A DNA stretch of 35,180 nt. It comes from Chthonomonadaceae bacterium (GTDB lineage Bacteria; Armatimonadota; Chthonomonadetes; Chthonomonadales; Chthonomonadaceae). The position numbers were made by a program, and so were the translations under genes. The stretch is taken from assembly GCA_025352825.1 (NCBI GenBank), contig JANXSG010000161.1:1-35180 (forward strand). The letters run 5' to 3'. Within the stretch, counting starts at the first letter, position 1. Each line of letters begins with the position of its first letter. The notes beneath the pieces are model-generated. The model searched no databases, had not been told where the DNA came from, and saw nothing but the letters and a program-made list of their open reading frames with translations. Shown here one piece after another: positions 3,287 to 35,180 of the stretch.

Positions 3287-3440
3287 TGTTATTTCATATG
3301 TATATCTTGCTCTCGTAACATTGAGGTGCCTCCACCATCTTACGCACGTTAGGTGAAGGCGAGATCCTCCTACTCTCGTGAATAACGTACATCTGGGCGA
3401 GGGTTGAGGTGAGGTAAAAACATTTGCTAAGTGATATTCA

Positions 3441-3542: not shown

Positions 3543-3800
3543 TCAGGGAATCGGAATGTGGGAACTGTATACATACTTTTCCGGGTTCAGCCAGAATTTT
3601 TTCGGGCATGGGTTACAGCAGAAGTAGTACCTGTTGCCTTTGTAGTCGGCATAGAGTTTCGCTTTAGTAGATCCGCCTATATTTACTCTGAACGTGGTAA
3701 GAGGACATCTCATCACAACAGCGTTATTTTTCGGCGGTAAAGCATTTGTACACACCGTTAGAGATAACAGCCCAGAACACAAAAATAGTGTCCGTTTCAT
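3543..3800 (-). CDS. Secreted YHS/TRASH-type cysteine protein, copy 1
   Basis: An 85-residue protein with an N-terminal signal peptide (MKRTLFLCSGLLSLTVCTNA) and a small domain built like YHS/TRASH metal-binding modules. It has one Cys after the mature N-terminus (VMRCPL), then ADYKGNRYYFCCNPCPKKFWLNPEKY. The FCCxxC cluster and the 'F..NPEKY' ending are typical. Such domains bind heavy metals or act as metallochaperones outside the cytoplasm. AGGAGGA precedes the ATG by six bases. It is a diverged paralog of the neighbour at 4005-4295, ending in the same 'SHIP.P' motif. The terminator at 3928-3960 lies between them, so this copy should have its own promoter. The metal is unknown. Confidence 0.8.
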   Translation of the reverse strand: MKRTLFLCSGLLSLTVCTNALPPKNNAVVMRCPLTTFRVNIGGSTKAKLYADYKGNRYYFCCNPCPKKFWLNPEKYVYSSHIPIP

Positions 3801-4004: not shown

Positions 4005-4295
4005 TTATGATGCAGTTTTCGCCTTCGGTGTTGGAATATGCGGGCTTTTTGCAAACTTAGCCGGGTCCTTTTTAAAGGCTTCCGGGCATCCGCCACAGCA
4101 GAAGAAATATCTATTTCCCTTGTAATCTGCAAACATTTTGGATGTTGTGGCCTTGGAAATGCTTACGTTATTGCTCTCCATGACCGCGCATTTAATACTG
4201 TCTGAAGTCTTTTTGACATTTTTCTTAGGTGGGGCTGCAAAAGCTGATACAGCAAGAAGCATAATTGCTGCACTGAAAAGCGTGGTTTTCTTCAT
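4005..4295 (-). CDS. Secreted YHS/TRASH-type cysteine protein, copy 2
   Basis: A 96-residue protein with a clean signal peptide (cleavage after AVSAFA), a lysine-rich linker and a YHS/TRASH-like domain. That domain reads IKCAVMESNNVSISKATTSKMFADYKGNRYFFCCGGCPEAFKKDPAKFAKSPHIP. The cysteine spacing (one early C, then CC..C) matches copy 1. GGAG lies nine bases upstream of the ATG. A possible promoter is TTGTAC (4340-4345), 18 bp, TAATAT (4316-4321) on the minus strand. It probably binds a soft metal ion in the periplasm or outside the cell. No efflux pump or P-type ATPase lies near, so the partner is unknown. Confidence 0.82.
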   Translation of the reverse strand: MKKTTLFSAAIMLLAVSAFAAPPKKNVKKTSDSIKCAVMESNNVSISKATTSKMFADYKGNRYFFCCGGCPEAFKKDPAKFAKSPHIPTPKAKTAS

Positions 4296-6886: not shown

Positions 6887-7789
6887 ATGCTAATTCGTCA
6901 CTCAAAACACTATCCGAAGAATCTCAAGCTTTGTGGTCTGCACAACCAAAATCGATCAAAGCTATTCATTGTACTAGTATTATCGCTCTCAGGTTTCAAT
7001 TCCGCCTCAGCACGTGCCGAAGATGGCCGTGCTATCCTTCAAAAATGCCTGTCAGCCTATCAGCATCTCTCCAGTTATGAAGGTAAATCGGTGCTTAAGA
7101 CTCAGGTAAAGTCTGATGGAAAGGTGGTTCAGTCTGCTGCACTTTCCCTGACGATGGAGATGAAACGCCCTAATAAATTGCACATCACTATCATGAGTCC
7201 CAGAGGGTCGAGTCAGATATTCAGCGACGGCCAATCGCTTATAGTATTCGATGCTTCCGCAAACCAGTATACAAAAGGCCCGTCTGCAGCAACTATGGAA
7301 GCGATGCTGCCCGAGCTCTTCAAGCGGGCACGAGTGCTTGCTTTGATAGATCCTCTGGGATTTATGAGCCGTCCTCAGCTTCCAAAAGAGCTCACTAATA
7401 TCCTGTCTCTCCCTGATTCTACTTTTAACGGACACACAGTTTATGTGATTTCAGGACAGACGAAAACACCAGCCCATACCCTTAAAAACACCGTAGGTAA
7501 ATCAGTAACTATTCCTGCGACATTTCAAAACTGGAAATGGTGGATAGATAAATCAACACTCCTTTTTGATAAAATCGAGATTGAAAACCCAAATATCATG
7601 CTGCGAAGATTCAAGCGTGAAGGGAAAAAAATATCTTCTGTCATGAAGAAAGCTGTCTCCATGATGAAAAATACTCTGGCCGATTGCAAACCAGATGCTC
7701 CTGTACCAGACCAGCGGTTTACATTTACGATTCCTGCTGGCGCCAAGGAACATCGCAGTGCAGAGGAAATATTGAAGGGCGCCAAATGA
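6887..7789 (+). CDS. LolA/DUF2092-like exported protein
   Basis: A 300-residue protein with a signal peptide after a long basic N-terminus (hydrophobic core LFIVLVLSLSGFN, cleavage probably after SARA). The body, ILQKCLSAYQHLSSYEGKSVLKTQV...MEMKRPNKLHITIMSPRGSSQIFSDGQSLIVFDASANQYTKGP, follows the fold and order of DUF2092/LolA-like proteins, which bind lipids or lipid anchors in the periplasm. The frame is open to an ATG at 6839, but the promoter start point lies there, so I take the ATG at 6887. The wecA-type gene follows after 24 bases. A role in carrying a lipid-linked product is inference. The C-terminal ~60 residues, including a basic KKISSVMKKAVSMMKN stretch, are not obviously part of the family. 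Confidence 0.72.
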   Translation: MLIRHSKHYPKNLKLCGLHNQNRSKLFIVLVLSLSGFNSASARAEDGRAILQKCLSAYQHLSSYEGKSVLKTQVKSDGKVVQSAALSLTMEMKRPNKLHITIMSPRGSSQIFSDGQSLIVFDASANQYTKGPSAATMEAMLPELFKRARVLALIDPLGFMSRPQLPKELTNILSLPDSTFNGHTVYVISGQTKTPAHTLKNTVGKSVTIPATFQNWKWWIDKSTLLFDKIEIENPNIMLRRFKREGKKISSVMKKAVSMMKNTLADCKPDAPVPDQRFTFTIPAGAKEHRSAEEILKGAK

Positions 7790-7813: not shown

Positions 7814-8830
7814 ATGTTCGGAATAATAGTCGCTGCGATTGTTGCCGCACTCGTTACGAGTTCGGTTACCCCGAGTATTCTGCGCTGGTCGGTTAAAGTC
7901 GGTCTGGTAGATATTCCAAGTGCGCGGCGAGTAAATACAGAGCCGATGCCTCGTGCTGGTGGTATTGCCATCTTTCTCGGCTTCCTGATTGCAGTACTGC
8001 TGACGGTAACAGTGCGCCAATTTAGTAAATCCGGCCAGCACACCTGGACTCCGCAGGTACTCGGAGTGCTGGCAGCATCTAGTTTTGCGGCACTCGTGGG
8101 GCTGATGGATGATTTCAAGAATCTCTCTGCAAAAGTACAGATACTGGCAATGGCAGCAGCGGGCTGTATTCTCGCAGTTTCGGGAGTGCGGATCGAGGGA
8201 ATAACGAATCCTCTTGGCGGGACATTCGGAACTACCTACAACCCACTCATCAATTGGCATCCACTGGGAATTGCAGCCTCGATTTTAATTACGATCGTGT
8301 GGGTTTTTATCGTCACTAAAACCGTCGATGCTATCGATGGAGTAGATGGGCTGGCAGCGGGTGTTTGTGCAATTGCCGCTGCTACACTGGCGCTTATGGC
8401 GACACTACTTCACACCAAAGAAGGACCTACTGTAGCTCTTATTGCCGCTGCGCTCATGGGAAGCTGCCTCGGTTTTCTGCGATTCAACTATCATCCTGCA
8501 AAGATTATTATGGGAACTGTGGGTGCGTGGGTACTAGGTGTAGTTCTAGCCGCTATATCGATTCTAGGTGCATTCAAGCTAGCTGCAGCAGTCTCCGTGC
8601 TAGTGCCGGTTCTTGTTCTAGGCGTCCCTCTATTCGATTTTACGCATGTGTTAGCGCGAAGGCTTCTCGCTGGAGCTCCACTCACTGTAGCAGATAAGAG
8701 GCATCTGCACCATCGTTTGCTCGAAAGAGGGTGGAGCCAGCGTCAGATTGTCTGGTTTATCTATAGTCTTGCTACCCTGCTTTGCATTACTGCCTTTGCC
8801 ATTTTTCATATGGGACGCGGCGGGAATTAG
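7814..8830 (+). CDS. wecA: Undecaprenyl-phosphate sugar-1-phosphate transferase (WecA/TagO type)
   Basis: Polytopic inner-membrane enzyme of the MraY/WecA family that moves a HexNAc-1-phosphate, usually GlcNAc-1-P, from its UDP donor to undecaprenyl phosphate. This begins O-antigen, teichoic acid or capsule synthesis. All family motifs are present: PSARRVNTEPMPRAGGIAI at 35-53, LVGLMDDFKNL with the Mg-binding DD at 99-100, KTVDAIDGVDGLAAG at 169-182, and HLHHRLLERGWSQRQ near 297-311. The histidine-rich loop separates WecA/TagO from MraY. About ten hydrophobic helices are visible. AGGG lies nine bases before the ATG. The UDP-GlcNAc 2-epimerase gene follows, as expected for a GlcNAc/ManNAc-based polymer. 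Symbol given by family; tagO is equally fitting. Confidence 0.93.
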   Translation: MFGIIVAAIVAALVTSSVTPSILRWSVKVGLVDIPSARRVNTEPMPRAGGIAIFLGFLIAVLLTVTVRQFSKSGQHTWTPQVLGVLAASSFAALVGLMDDFKNLSAKVQILAMAAAGCILAVSGVRIEGITNPLGGTFGTTYNPLINWHPLGIAASILITIVWVFIVTKTVDAIDGVDGLAAGVCAIAAATLALMATLLHTKEGPTVALIAAALMGSCLGFLRFNYHPAKIIMGTVGAWVLGVVLAAISILGAFKLAAAVSVLVPVLVLGVPLFDFTHVLARRLLAGAPLTVADKRHLHHRLLERGWSQRQIVWFIYSLATLLCITAFAIFHMGRGGN

Positions 8831-8832
8831 TA

Positions 8833-8911
8833 AGACACGGTACTAAAGTACCGGACTGGATGTGCAAAGCCCATCTCCGGTCGCTTAGACTCCCTGCATG
8901 GGCTAAATTCT
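8833..8911. repeat. 79-bp dispersed element, copy 1
   Basis: About nine bases in ten match the reverse complement of 34717-34795. It starts three bases after the wecA stop. It contains two inverted repeats: CGGTACT/AGTACCG separated by AA, and AGCCCAT/ATGGGCT separated by 23 bases. It encodes no protein in this context. It may be a non-autonomous mobile repeat or a structured RNA element. Confidence 0.85.
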
Positions 8912-8920
8912 CGATTGATG

Positions 8921-8963
8921 TACCCCTCTCCTGTTTTTGGGAGAGGGGCTGGGGGGTAAGGAC
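8921..8963. repeat. GC-rich palindromic repeat, copy 1
   Basis: CCCCTCTCC (8923-8931) and GGAGAGGGG (8940-8948) pair over nine bases around an eight-base loop containing TGTTTTTG, followed by a G-rich tail GCTGGGGGGTAAGG. Copies in other orientations lie at 13521-13563 and 13657-13705. Sequences of this kind are abundant between genes in Planctomycetota and some other phyla, from general knowledge. Confidence 0.8.
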
Positions 8964-9008
8964 TTATGAGGGTCAAAGTGTATCAAATTTTCAAATTAGG
9001 TACTATGC

Positions 9009-12155: not shown

Positions 12156-12460
12156 ACGAATCTGATGACATCTTGCAAAATATTTGATATGATGAGAAAT
12201 GTCGGAATATTCGATAGATTACCCTAATGAAAGAATCTGAACTTCCCGACAATATGAATTGTACGATGATGCAAAAGGCAAACTCACAGAAATGTGAGGA
12301 CGCAAAGCCATGGGCCTTACAGGAAATGAATAACTGCGCCAAGAGCTATCCGCTGCAGCGCACTATTCCTACTTCAGTTCCTCCTGTTGGCTGCCAGGTT
12401 GCCGTCCTCGACGTAGGGTAATGTTACCGACATTGCTTTTAACGCTCAGGAGGCAAAATT
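12156..12460. other. Region between the fusion gene and flgM
   Basis: 305 bases holding one possible small reading frame (12227-12421, listed separately). I see no convincing promoter pair or terminator. A flagellar sigma-28 promoter was looked for and not found. Confidence 0.4.
12227..12421 (+). CDS. Possible small cysteine-containing protein before flgM
   Basis: A 64-codon frame with four cysteines (MNCTMM, QKCED, NNCAK, VGCQVAV) and no membrane segment. It ends 39 bases before the flgM-like start. There is no Shine-Dalgarno sequence before the ATG, and I recognise no family. The codon use looks like that of neighbouring genes, which is the only support. It may be a real small gene or chance. 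Confidence 0.3.
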   Translation: MKESELPDNMNCTMMQKANSQKCEDAKPWALQEMNNCAKSYPLQRTIPTSVPPVGCQVAVLDVG

Positions 12461-12781
12461 ATGAAAATTTCAAACGAAGAAGTGAGCCGATTGCTTGCTT
12501 TCTCGCCGTCGGATCGCGGTACTACCCATTCACACTCTGCGAATTCGACAGCACTGGCCGACACCAATACGCACCCTTCGGATGCTGCGACGGTACATGT
12601 TTCACCGTCCGCTTATGAGGTGCAGCAGATAAAGAATCTTGTGAACTCTCTGCCAGATCAGCGCGTCGATAGGGTTCAGGCTCTCAAAGCGCAGATCGAC
12701 AATGGTTCCTATAAAGTTAGCGGCGAGGATATCGCCGAACTCATTATTCGCCGTGTGTTGGCGGATAACACAGCCATCTAA
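12461..12781 (+). CDS. flgM: FlgM-like anti-sigma-28 factor
   Basis: A 106-residue protein with a disordered, Ser/Thr/His-rich first half and a conserved C-terminal FlgM domain (about 55-103: VQQIKNLVNSLPDQRVDRVQALKAQIDNGSYKVSGEDIAELIIRRVL). FlgM binds the flagellar sigma factor FliA and is released by export through the hook-basal body. AGGAGG lies seven bases upstream of the ATG, a strong site. No other flagellar gene is in the window, so the gene is apart from its usual flgN/flgK neighbours, as in several phyla with scattered flagellar genes. Confidence 0.85.
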   Translation: MKISNEEVSRLLAFSPSDRGTTHSHSANSTALADTNTHPSDAATVHVSPSAYEVQQIKNLVNSLPDQRVDRVQALKAQIDNGSYKVSGEDIAELIIRRVLADNTAI

Positions 12782-13476: not shown

Positions 13477-13520
13477 TGACCGTGTGAATTCAACATCTCT
13501 CTAAATACTCATATTTTAGC

Positions 13521-13563
13521 CATCACCCCCTGACCCTTCTCCCAAAAACAGGTGAGGGGTGAC
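13521..13563. repeat. GC-rich palindromic repeat, copy 2 (inverted)
   Basis: The reverse complement reads CACCCCTCACCTGTTTTTGG then GAGAAGGGTCAGGGGGTGA, clearly the same element as 8921-8963, including the TGTTTTTGGGAGA core. It lies just downstream of the lipoprotein gene. Confidence 0.75.
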
Positions 13564-13656: not shown

Positions 13657-13705
13657 TCACCCCCTCCCTCTCCTGTTTATAGGAGAAGGAGACGGGGGGG
13701 GGTGA
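13657..13705. repeat. GC-rich palindromic repeat, copy 3
   Basis: CACCCCCTCCCTCTCCTGTT, then TATAGGAGAAGGAGAC and a run of nine G. Same plan as the copies at 8921 and 13521: C-rich arm, CTCCTGTTT core, AGGAGA arm, G-rich tail. It ends six bases before parS. Confidence 0.72.
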
Positions 13706-13737: not shown

Positions 13738-14211
13738 TCATCGCAGGAAAACTTGAGAACTATTTGCCCAGGCATCCAGAGCGTTTAGTCTGCTATCCGG
13801 AATGAGGCGGATGGAATCGATCTCGCCTGGAGAAAGCCATCGAAAACCTGCCGACTCGCTGCTCTCTTGAAGATGCCCGCCTACCTGGCGCACTTCGAAA
13901 CACAAAACAAAACTTTGATGCACGTTACCATCGGGATATGAACAGACTGATAGCGGTGATGTATTTACAGCAATGAGCCGGACAATCTCAGTGTGAAGAC
14001 CAGTTTCCTCGGCCATCTCACGCACACAGCAGTCCTGGGCAGATTCACCAGAGTCCATTCTACCACCCGGCAGGCACCACCAATCACCCTGTGTGCGCTT
14101 CATGAAGAGAATTCTTTGGCACTCATCAAACAGAATTGCGGAGACGCCCGGGCTCACAGCGACGTTCGGTTTGGGGGCATTTGGATCATTGTAGTAGAAC
14201 TGCTCAATCAT
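13738..14211 (-). CDS. Nudix hydrolase
   Basis: A 157-residue pyrophosphohydrolase with a complete Nudix box at residues 50-72: G50, E56, R64-E65, E68-E69, G71, matching Gx5Ex7REUxEExGU. These enzymes hydrolyse nucleoside diphosphates linked to another group; the substrate cannot be read from the sequence. The flanking WCLPGGRMDSGES is typical of the MutT/ADP-ribose pyrophosphatase-like majority. The ATG lies two bases after the parB stop, and its GGGAGG site is inside the parB end, so it is co-translated with parB. A link to chromosome segregation is possible but unproven. Confidence 0.92.
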   Translation of the reverse strand: MIEQFYYNDPNAPKPNVAVSPGVSAILFDECQRILFMKRTQGDWWCLPGGRMDSGESAQDCCVREMAEETGLHTEIVRLIAVNTSPLSVCSYPDGNVHQSFVLCFEVRQVGGHLQESSESAGFRWLSPGEIDSIRLIPDSRLNALDAWANSSQVFLR

Positions 14212-34650: not shown

Positions 34651-34672
34651 GACTGGTATAGAATTACCAGTC
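34651..34672. terminator. Perfect hairpin after the partial acetyltransferase-like gene
   Basis: GACTGGTA and TACCAGTC form an eight-pair perfect stem around the loop TAGAAT. It lies downstream of the minus-strand gene ending at 34835, beyond the 79-bp element. No T-run is present, so termination is only suggested. Confidence 0.35.
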
Positions 34673-34716
34673 TGGAGAGCCTTGGGCCAACCGATATATG
34701 AATAGCATTCCAAATA

Positions 34717-34795
34717 GAAATCAGCCCATGCAGGGAGTCTTGAGCGACCGGAGATGGGCTTTGCAAATCCAGACCGGTACTTTAGTGCCGTGTCT
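34717..34795. repeat. 79-bp dispersed element, copy 2 (inverted)
   Basis: The reverse complement matches 8833-8911 at about nine in ten bases with a single one-base gap. The AGCCCAT/ATGGGCT arms are unchanged. In the small hairpin one base has changed, so that the + strand RNA here (CGGUACU/AGUGCCG) keeps a G-U pair while the other strand loses the pair. Confidence 0.85.
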
Positions 34796-34834: not shown

Positions 34835-35180
34835 CTAACTTGTCTCCGGTATGAAGGTAGGCATGACGACGCCATTGGGAGGCTGCCAGGCGCCACGCAC
34901 CTGTGAAAAATGGAACTGGCAATTTTTTGCCCCGGCGCGATACATCTCGGCTACTAGCTCTGCACAATCCACCGGGATAACGAATACGGGTTGACAGCCT
35001 TTGTGAACTTGCCATTCAGCATAGATTAGCGCTGCCATGCCCGTCTGAGTTTTGCAAACACCTGGGCCAAACATATTGCTGCCGGGGTGATTGATAGAGC
35101 AGAGAAACCCTTCCAGTTCTCCTGCCGCATCTTCCAGCACGGAAACATGCCAGATTCCCATTTTGTTCTCAAGAAAGTAT
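34835..35180 (-). CDS. Acetyltransferase-like (GNAT) protein, C-terminal part
   Basis: The frame is open to the right window edge, so only the last 114 or so residues are seen. NKMGIWHVSVLEDAAGELEGFLCSINHPGSNMFGPGVCKTQTGMAALIYAEWQVHKGCQPVFVIPVDCAELVAEMYRAGAKNCQFHFSQVRG resembles the end of a GNAT-like domain. A strand with 'GFL', a small-residue-rich helix, then a 'VPVDC.ELV.EMYRAGAKNC' helix-strand follow the usual 'N..A..LY...GF' position. The acetyl-CoA-binding loop is not clear. The assignment is by pattern only. Confidence 0.6.
   Translation of the reverse strand, partial: YFLENKMGIWHVSVLEDAAGELEGFLCSINHPGSNMFGPGVCKTQTGMAALIYAEWQVHKGCQPVFVIPVDCAELVAEMYRAGAKNCQFHFSQVRGAWQPPNGVVMPTFIPETS

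Follow-up and report, generated by a model that had tools for sequence, protein, structure and literature searches.

The described systems closest to the locus analyzed here are the REPs with their class 2 TnpA_REP transposases (RAYTs), the TIRtrons with their TIRYT transposases, the CGTC-tagged REPs, the REPINs, and the IS200/IS605 elements. TIRtron repeats can form moderately abundant families of single and dimeric copies (PMC3733652), and the TIRYTs belong mostly to class 2, with 20 of 26 in subclass 2.1 (PMC6006769). The CGTC-tagged REPs have been reported without a known transposase (PMC3733652). Subclass 1.2 of the TnpA_Y1 proteins, as delineated by Quentin et al. in 2018, is characterized by the motif Y---Q--HH and a length of ~148 aa, occurs mostly in Cyanobacteria and Bacteroidetes, and was listed without REPs and generally without IS-type ends (PMC6006769). 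Searches of an open-access literature collection for later work on this subclass returned only the 2018 paper, and a search with the Bacteroidetes palindrome sequence returned nothing relevant. With REPs and RAYTs already known, what is notable in the present analysis is a repeat family probably tied to a subclass that was described without any.

The window, i.e., the whole 35,180-nt stretch of Chthonomonadaceae DNA that was analyzed, carries two copies of a 79-bp repeat, referred to here as family A, at positions 8833-8911 on the plus strand and 34717-34795 on the minus strand (Table 1). A whole-genome search followed by alignment gave 91% identity between the two (E = 3e-25), and their inverted arms, 8833-8885 and 34743-34795, are 94% identical, so that the repeat in opposite orientation ~26 kb apart, as reported in the preliminary description, is real. 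Both the long-loop stem and the short stem of that description are found in each copy. Copy 1 starts 2 to 3 nt after the stop codon of a wecA-like ORF (7814-8830), and copy 2 is located ~40 nt past the stop codon of a minus-strand ORF (34835-35161). Elsewhere in the window, a c-di-GMP-I-GGC riboswitch aptamer (12268-12407, 62.6 bits) is found upstream of a small ORF (12461-12781), and two small paralogs that look secreted and carry CCxxCP-type motifs are encoded next to each other on the minus strand (3543-3800 and 4005-4295).

Table 1. Coordinates of family-A and family-B features in the window and around the two Y1 transposase genes of the host (positions without a contig name are those of the window)
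Feature	Position	Strand	Basis or remarks
Copy 1, whole family-A element	8833-8908	+	Covariance-model match, 97 bits
Copy 1, hairpin 1, CGGTAC-TAAA-GTACCG	8838-8853	+	Sequence; covariation over 94 copies
Copy 1, body hairpin, AGCCCAT ... ATGGGCT, inner segment CGGTCGCTTAGACTCCCT	8868-8904	+	Sequence
Copy 2, whole family-A element	34719-34795	-	Covariance-model match, 98 bits
Copy 2, hairpin 1, consensus form with C.A / G.T position	34775-34790	-	Sequence
Copy 2, body hairpin, AGCCCAT / ATGGGCT	34723-34760	-	Sequence
Possible family-B remnant adjoining copy 2	34652-34692	+	ACTGGTA-TAGAAT-TACCAGT (7-bp hairpin), then CTGGAGAGCCTTGGGCCAACC
Y1_Tnp gene	C294:13361-13699		137-aa product with DHVH, WQ, and YIYNQKQHH
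Family-A copies flanking the C294 Y1 gene	C294:13237-13309 and 13770-13842	+ and -	Convergent, few base differences
Family-B inverted repeats bracketing the C171 Y1 gene	C171:2782-2838 and 3332-3386		L151

The statement that the repeat is present twice holds within the window but not genome-wide. The host draft genome comprises 4.87 Mb in 298 contigs; a DNA search of it returned at least 40 full matches among 109 candidates, and with a covariance model built on 28 copies the matches number 104 genome-wide (E ≤ 0.01) and 94 in a set of fetched contigs totaling 1.21 Mb (E ≤ 0.001). These contigs, mostly picked for containing matches, are the basis of the family-A statistics given below. The search for further copies had been set beforehand as one test on which the description of the repeat could fail, and ~100 copies turned up. 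Full-length copies are absent from all 40 related genomes sampled, one same-phylum genome has the outer 25 nt alone, and an exact-pattern scan of named genomes gave 0 matches to the family-A core. Copies on contigs C160, C17, C41, and C294 are 99 to 100% identical over 71 to 73 nt, suggesting recent copying of this subgroup. Many of the 94 copies, in turn, are diverged, with covariance-model scores down to ~45 bits, so the amplification is partly old.

The family-A consensus, GACGCGGCACTAAAGTACCGGTCTGGATTTGCGAAGCCCATCTCCGGTCGCTTAGGCTCCCTGCATGGGCTGA, is ~76 nt long (75 to 79 nt) and includes two hairpins: hairpin 1, on the outside, has a TRAA loop and is joined through the linker GTCTGGA to the larger body hairpin. 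Hairpin 1, CGGCAC-TAAA-GTACCG, is extended by GAC/GTC and occurs on the constant body in several versions (CGGCAC/GTACCG, CTGCAC/GTACAG, CCGGGT/ACCCGG, and GCGGGGT/ACCCCGC). Its structure is supported by covariation, with double changes in all 4 modeled pairs. The double-change cells number 46 versus 8.5, and the whole-structure covariation score of 0.134 (versus 0.074 ± 0.004) is reached by none of the 500 shuffles and by no slid control, a result that is supportive rather than a probability, as the shuffles ignore the relatedness of the copies. The body stem, AGCCCAT/ATGGGCT, shows hardly any variation (95.5% of its cells are paired), so that its pairing is only weakly tested. The folding energies (MFE) of single copies are modestly below those of shuffles (z of -1.2 to -2.3). 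Among the loops of hairpin 1, TAAA (62 copies) is far more frequent than TGAA (9 copies). At the fourth position of the stem, 62 copies have C.A, which corresponds to G.T on the other strand; the reverse wobble never occurs. At this position copy 1 has the rare T-A form, and in the short stem of copy 2 the T is replaced by C, so that the pair becomes C.A in the element strand but G.U in the complementary one. The preliminary description took this asymmetry as a hint that RNA is read from the minus strand at copy 1 and from the plus strand at copy 2. The asymmetry is real and family-wide, but RNA is not needed to account for it, as a strand-specific transposase acting on single-stranded DNA would suffice.

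Further repeats were also observed. An Abditibacterium genome (G042; loci L131, L133, and L135 at ~1501) carries repeats with the common inner segment CGGTCGCTTAGGCTCCCT and an outer stem, CATTCTGAA/TTCAGAATG, that is wholly different from that of family A, suggesting that across phyla a common core has had its stems exchanged. Another family of dispersed inverted repeats, the third, with the sequence CCCCTCTCC ... GGAGAGGGG, is found at 8922-8964, 13518-13560 (reverse), and 13666-13698. In 1.21 Mb of host sequence it has 102 BLAST matches, and its members are often separated by ~20 to 30 nt from the inner ends of family-A elements, as if both moved together as one composite.

The host genome encodes two Y1_Tnp proteins. 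The gene on contig C294 is located between two family-A copies that form 83-nt inverted arms (score of 156 versus a shuffle maximum of 25), with the right-hand repeated sequence starting ~8 to 15 nt past the stop codon. This is the single intact transposase gene found between family-A copies, and its link to the repeat is one of position and of parallels in other genomes. The C294 protein has the HUH motif, catalytic Tyr, and Y1_Tnp domain (E = 9e-27) of the IS200/IS605 superfamily, scores 72 bits against a cutoff of 55 on the NCBIfam model of the IS200 transposase, and matches solved structures of the IS608/ISDra2 type. On the REP_Tyr_transpos model, with its cutoff of 80 bits, the C294 protein and the second host protein score 29 and 33 bits, respectively. 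Both proteins lack the Y---NP motif of class 2, carrying YIYNQKQHH and YIENQKTHH instead, and in the tree both fall inside a 47-protein subclass 1.2 group (96/91), apart from class 2 (100/99). Judged by the subclass motifs (DH[VI]H, WQ, and Y---Q--HH) and tree position, both are TnpA_Y1 proteins of subclass 1.2.

The second Y1 protein, encoded on contig C171 (151 to 163 aa, with a DRIH variant, WQ, and YIENQKTHH), has inverted repeats of its own, referred to here as family B. Families A and B have in common the outer TAAA hairpin and the GTCTGGA sequence and differ in the body. Family-B-like matches are also dispersed (73 in all), some of them being merely the hairpin common to family A. The possible family-B remnant next to copy 2 was called by eye, in comparison with the inverted repeats flanking the C171 gene, and blastn detected no further copy of its exact form.

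Family-A copies are biased toward intergenic regions, as 85 of the 94 are located outside ORFs of at least 100 aa, where 21% of random points would be expected. With greedy ORFs, rather than the output of a gene finder, used as gene calls, divergent gaps are avoided (5 of 75 copies versus 20% expected) and convergent gaps are favored (24 of 75 versus 19% expected). REPs are known to follow a like distribution (PMC3733652). The median distance to a gene 3' end is 46 nt, and avoidance of promoter regions accounts for the nearness to 3' ends that had been reported for both window copies. Orientation relative to codirectional neighbors (28 versus 18, p = 0.18) shows no significant bias.

Of the pairs formed by copies within 1.1 kb of each other, 8 are convergent, with their GAC ends pointing outward, 2 are same-strand, and none is divergent (p = 4e-4), against a chance expectation of 0.5 convergent pairs and ~2 pairs of any kind. 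Three of the convergent pairs are just 136 to 174 nt apart, and some pairs span 450 to 940 nt, ORFs included. The convergent pair on C261 (730 bp), which has unrelated genes on both sides, encloses a 164-aa ORF (C261:5448-5942; L150) that matches the BPTD_3080 restriction endonuclease model over positions 847-967 of its 970 residues, i.e., a C-terminal fragment. The ORFs inside the C41 and C64 pairs have no Pfam match, and the C53 pair spans an ordinary dehydrogenase-like gene. A search with joined flanks yielded no clean empty site, just ambiguous matches inside other repeat arrays. Contig C255 (L259) has five family-A copies in 5.5 kb (at 7658, 9209, 10950, 11163, and 13006), separated by ORFs that by eye look phage-structural, possibly from a decayed prophage.

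By a valyl-tRNA synthetase fragment, the phylum of the host is probably Armatimonadota: the fragment is equally close (59%) to a named Armatimonadetes genome and to one same-phylum genome, versus 52 to 55% for other named phyla, although a second same-phylum genome gives just 53%. Of the best 80 relatives from named genomes, almost all belong to subclass 1.2, many of them from metagenome bins, with records from Bacteroidota, Chloroflexota, Armatimonadota, Abditibacteriota, Omnitrophota, and Pseudomonadota. Flanking inverted repeats, counted when the two 300-nt flanks of a locus scored above all 100 dinucleotide shuffles, were found at 10 of 14 subclass 1.2 loci of the host phylum (a set that leaves out 12 of 31 loci, where no ORF with the motifs was recognized) and at 25 of 78 loci outside the host-phylum set. 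Shuffles were chosen as the control because different Bacteroidetes genomes carry the same palindromes, which inflates pairing between loci. Hairpins with a TNAA loop and a mismatch-free stem of 7 bp or more were found within 400 nt of the gene at 66 of 79 named subclass 1.2 loci and in 3 of 65 control blocks 800 to 1,200 nt away; this test is not an independent one, the loop signature having been noticed in these data beforehand. For all subclass 1.2 loci, after removal of proteins more than 60% identical, the numbers are 17 of 40 versus 1 of 29 controls (p = 2e-4); class 2 genes have such hairpins at 2 of 20 loci (p = 0.017 versus subclass 1.2). The conserved C.A position makes the host's own hairpin escape the rule of a perfect 7-bp stem; when one mismatch is tolerated, the host phylum gives a weak signal (7 of 17 versus 2 of 14 control blocks), that of Bacteroidota being stronger. 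The flanking repeat is dispersed in one Armatimonadetes genome (G041, 53 matches) and in a genome of the same phylum as the host (G064, 41 matches, including close convergent doublets), and six of eight Bacteroidetes genomes have 1 to 6 copies only.

These observations are best explained, with a probability of about 0.8, by the 79-bp repeat being a REP/MITE-like nonautonomous mobile element moved by the C294 Y1 HUH transposase, in agreement with the miniature mobile element that figured among the original suggestions. We infer movement from the copy number, the lineage restriction, the near-identical subgroups, and the bracketed transposase gene. Acting on single-stranded DNA, the enzyme would recognize one of the two strands in its folded form; this is probably the G.T strand, whose loop reads TTTA, as the fixed G.T position suggests. 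By analogy with the biochemistry of IS200/IS605 and TnpA_REP, the catalytic Tyr would cut and rejoin single-stranded DNA near the hairpin via a 5'-phosphotyrosine, so that either a copy by itself or a convergent pair together with the enclosed DNA would be inserted at a new intergenic site, and selection would purge the copies landing in genes or promoters. In a speculative extension, which we consider rather unlikely, convergent pairs would pick up and move host DNA, gene pieces included, and would represent gene-fragment capture by an HUH system in bacteria, with an outcome like that of Helitrons or Pack-MULEs; the enclosure of the last 120 endonuclease residues by the C261 pair and of ORFs by the C41 and C64 pairs argues in its favor.

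The covariation of hairpin 1 and the location of copies near gene 3' ends could also point to a structured noncoding RNA or a 3'-UTR module (a terminator, an mRNA stabilizer, or a small RNA) whose copies arose through chance events or host recombination and persisted for their function. Both had been among the initial suggestions and now appear improbable: the site matches no Rfam family, orientation relative to genes shows no significant bias, divergent gaps are avoided, the hairpins are not followed by the T run that a terminator requires, and the family is species-specific and brackets a transposase gene. Transcribed copies may have a secondary role, as is known for REPs. A classical DDE transposon MITE with terminal inverted repeats, with the Y1 gene between copies by chance, would account for convergent pairs whose outward GAC ends look like such repeats and for the unrelated ORFs inside other pairs. 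It is quite improbable, given that each of the two host Y1 genes has a bracketing family of its own, that subclass 1.2 genes of other genomes are bracketed too, that the copies are hairpins, which Y1 enzymes need, and that the proposed check for target-site duplications found none around family-A copies. The least probable alternative is a repeat that benefits the host as the site of a DNA-packaging or repair protein, similarly to the E. coli BIMEs, with either the repeat or a RAYT-like gene having captured the other and with no mobility at present; intergenic placement and a partly old amplification with many diverged copies would agree with it, and the 99 to 100% identity of the C160, C17, C41, and C294 copies speaks against it.

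Seen as a mobile element moved by the C294 transposase, family A is a candidate substrate, in one genome, for subclass 1.2, which is widespread and previously had neither a partner repeat nor a role. A TRAA-loop hairpin, often in the form of inverted repeats, is a recurring signature around many of the sampled genes of this subclass, whose range is extended to the host phylum, Chloroflexota, Omnitrophota, and others. The substrate of an orphan HUH enzyme thus becomes testable in vitro with defined oligonucleotides, and the versions of the outer hairpin, exchanged on an unchanging body, provide a naturally occurring variant series for mapping recognition.

With the IS200/IS605 elements, the locus shares the transposase fold and motifs and the hairpins at element ends. 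The ends of IS200 are not long terminal inverted repeats. The locus further differs from IS200/IS605 in the absence of tnpB and in having one gene copy per family versus ~100 nonautonomous copies. Family A reads CGTC at one end on one strand, as the CGTC-tagged REPs do (PMC3733652), but assignment to these was rejected: those REPs have an unpaired CGTC at the 5' end and a CCA tail at the 3' end, an order that is reversed for the tag and CCA-like tail of family A, and the first pair of family A is C-G, unlike the A/T pairs that begin the stem of those REPs. Convergent pairs, three of them closely spaced, resemble REPINs (PMC3116915), whereas most family-A copies are singletons and some pairs are far apart and include ORFs. 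The TIRtrons (PMC3733652) likewise have a Y1 gene between long inverted repeats unrelated to GTAG REPs, and the difference from TIRYTs is that the enzyme here belongs to subclass 1.2 and the repeats have TRAA-loop hairpins. In common with the REP/RAYT systems (PMC2817692, PMC6006769, PMC8266576), family A consists of dispersed short extragenic hairpins in intergenic locations, has an imperfect stem with a conserved mismatch, and includes a REPtron-like arrangement of a single-copy Y1/HUH transposase gene between inverted copies. It differs from them in lacking, by inspection, the GT[AG]G guide motif on either strand of the consensus, in having two hairpins in 75 to 79 nt as opposed to one in 20 to 40 nt, and in the C294 enzyme, which as a subclass 1.2 protein is located outside class 2 in the tree.
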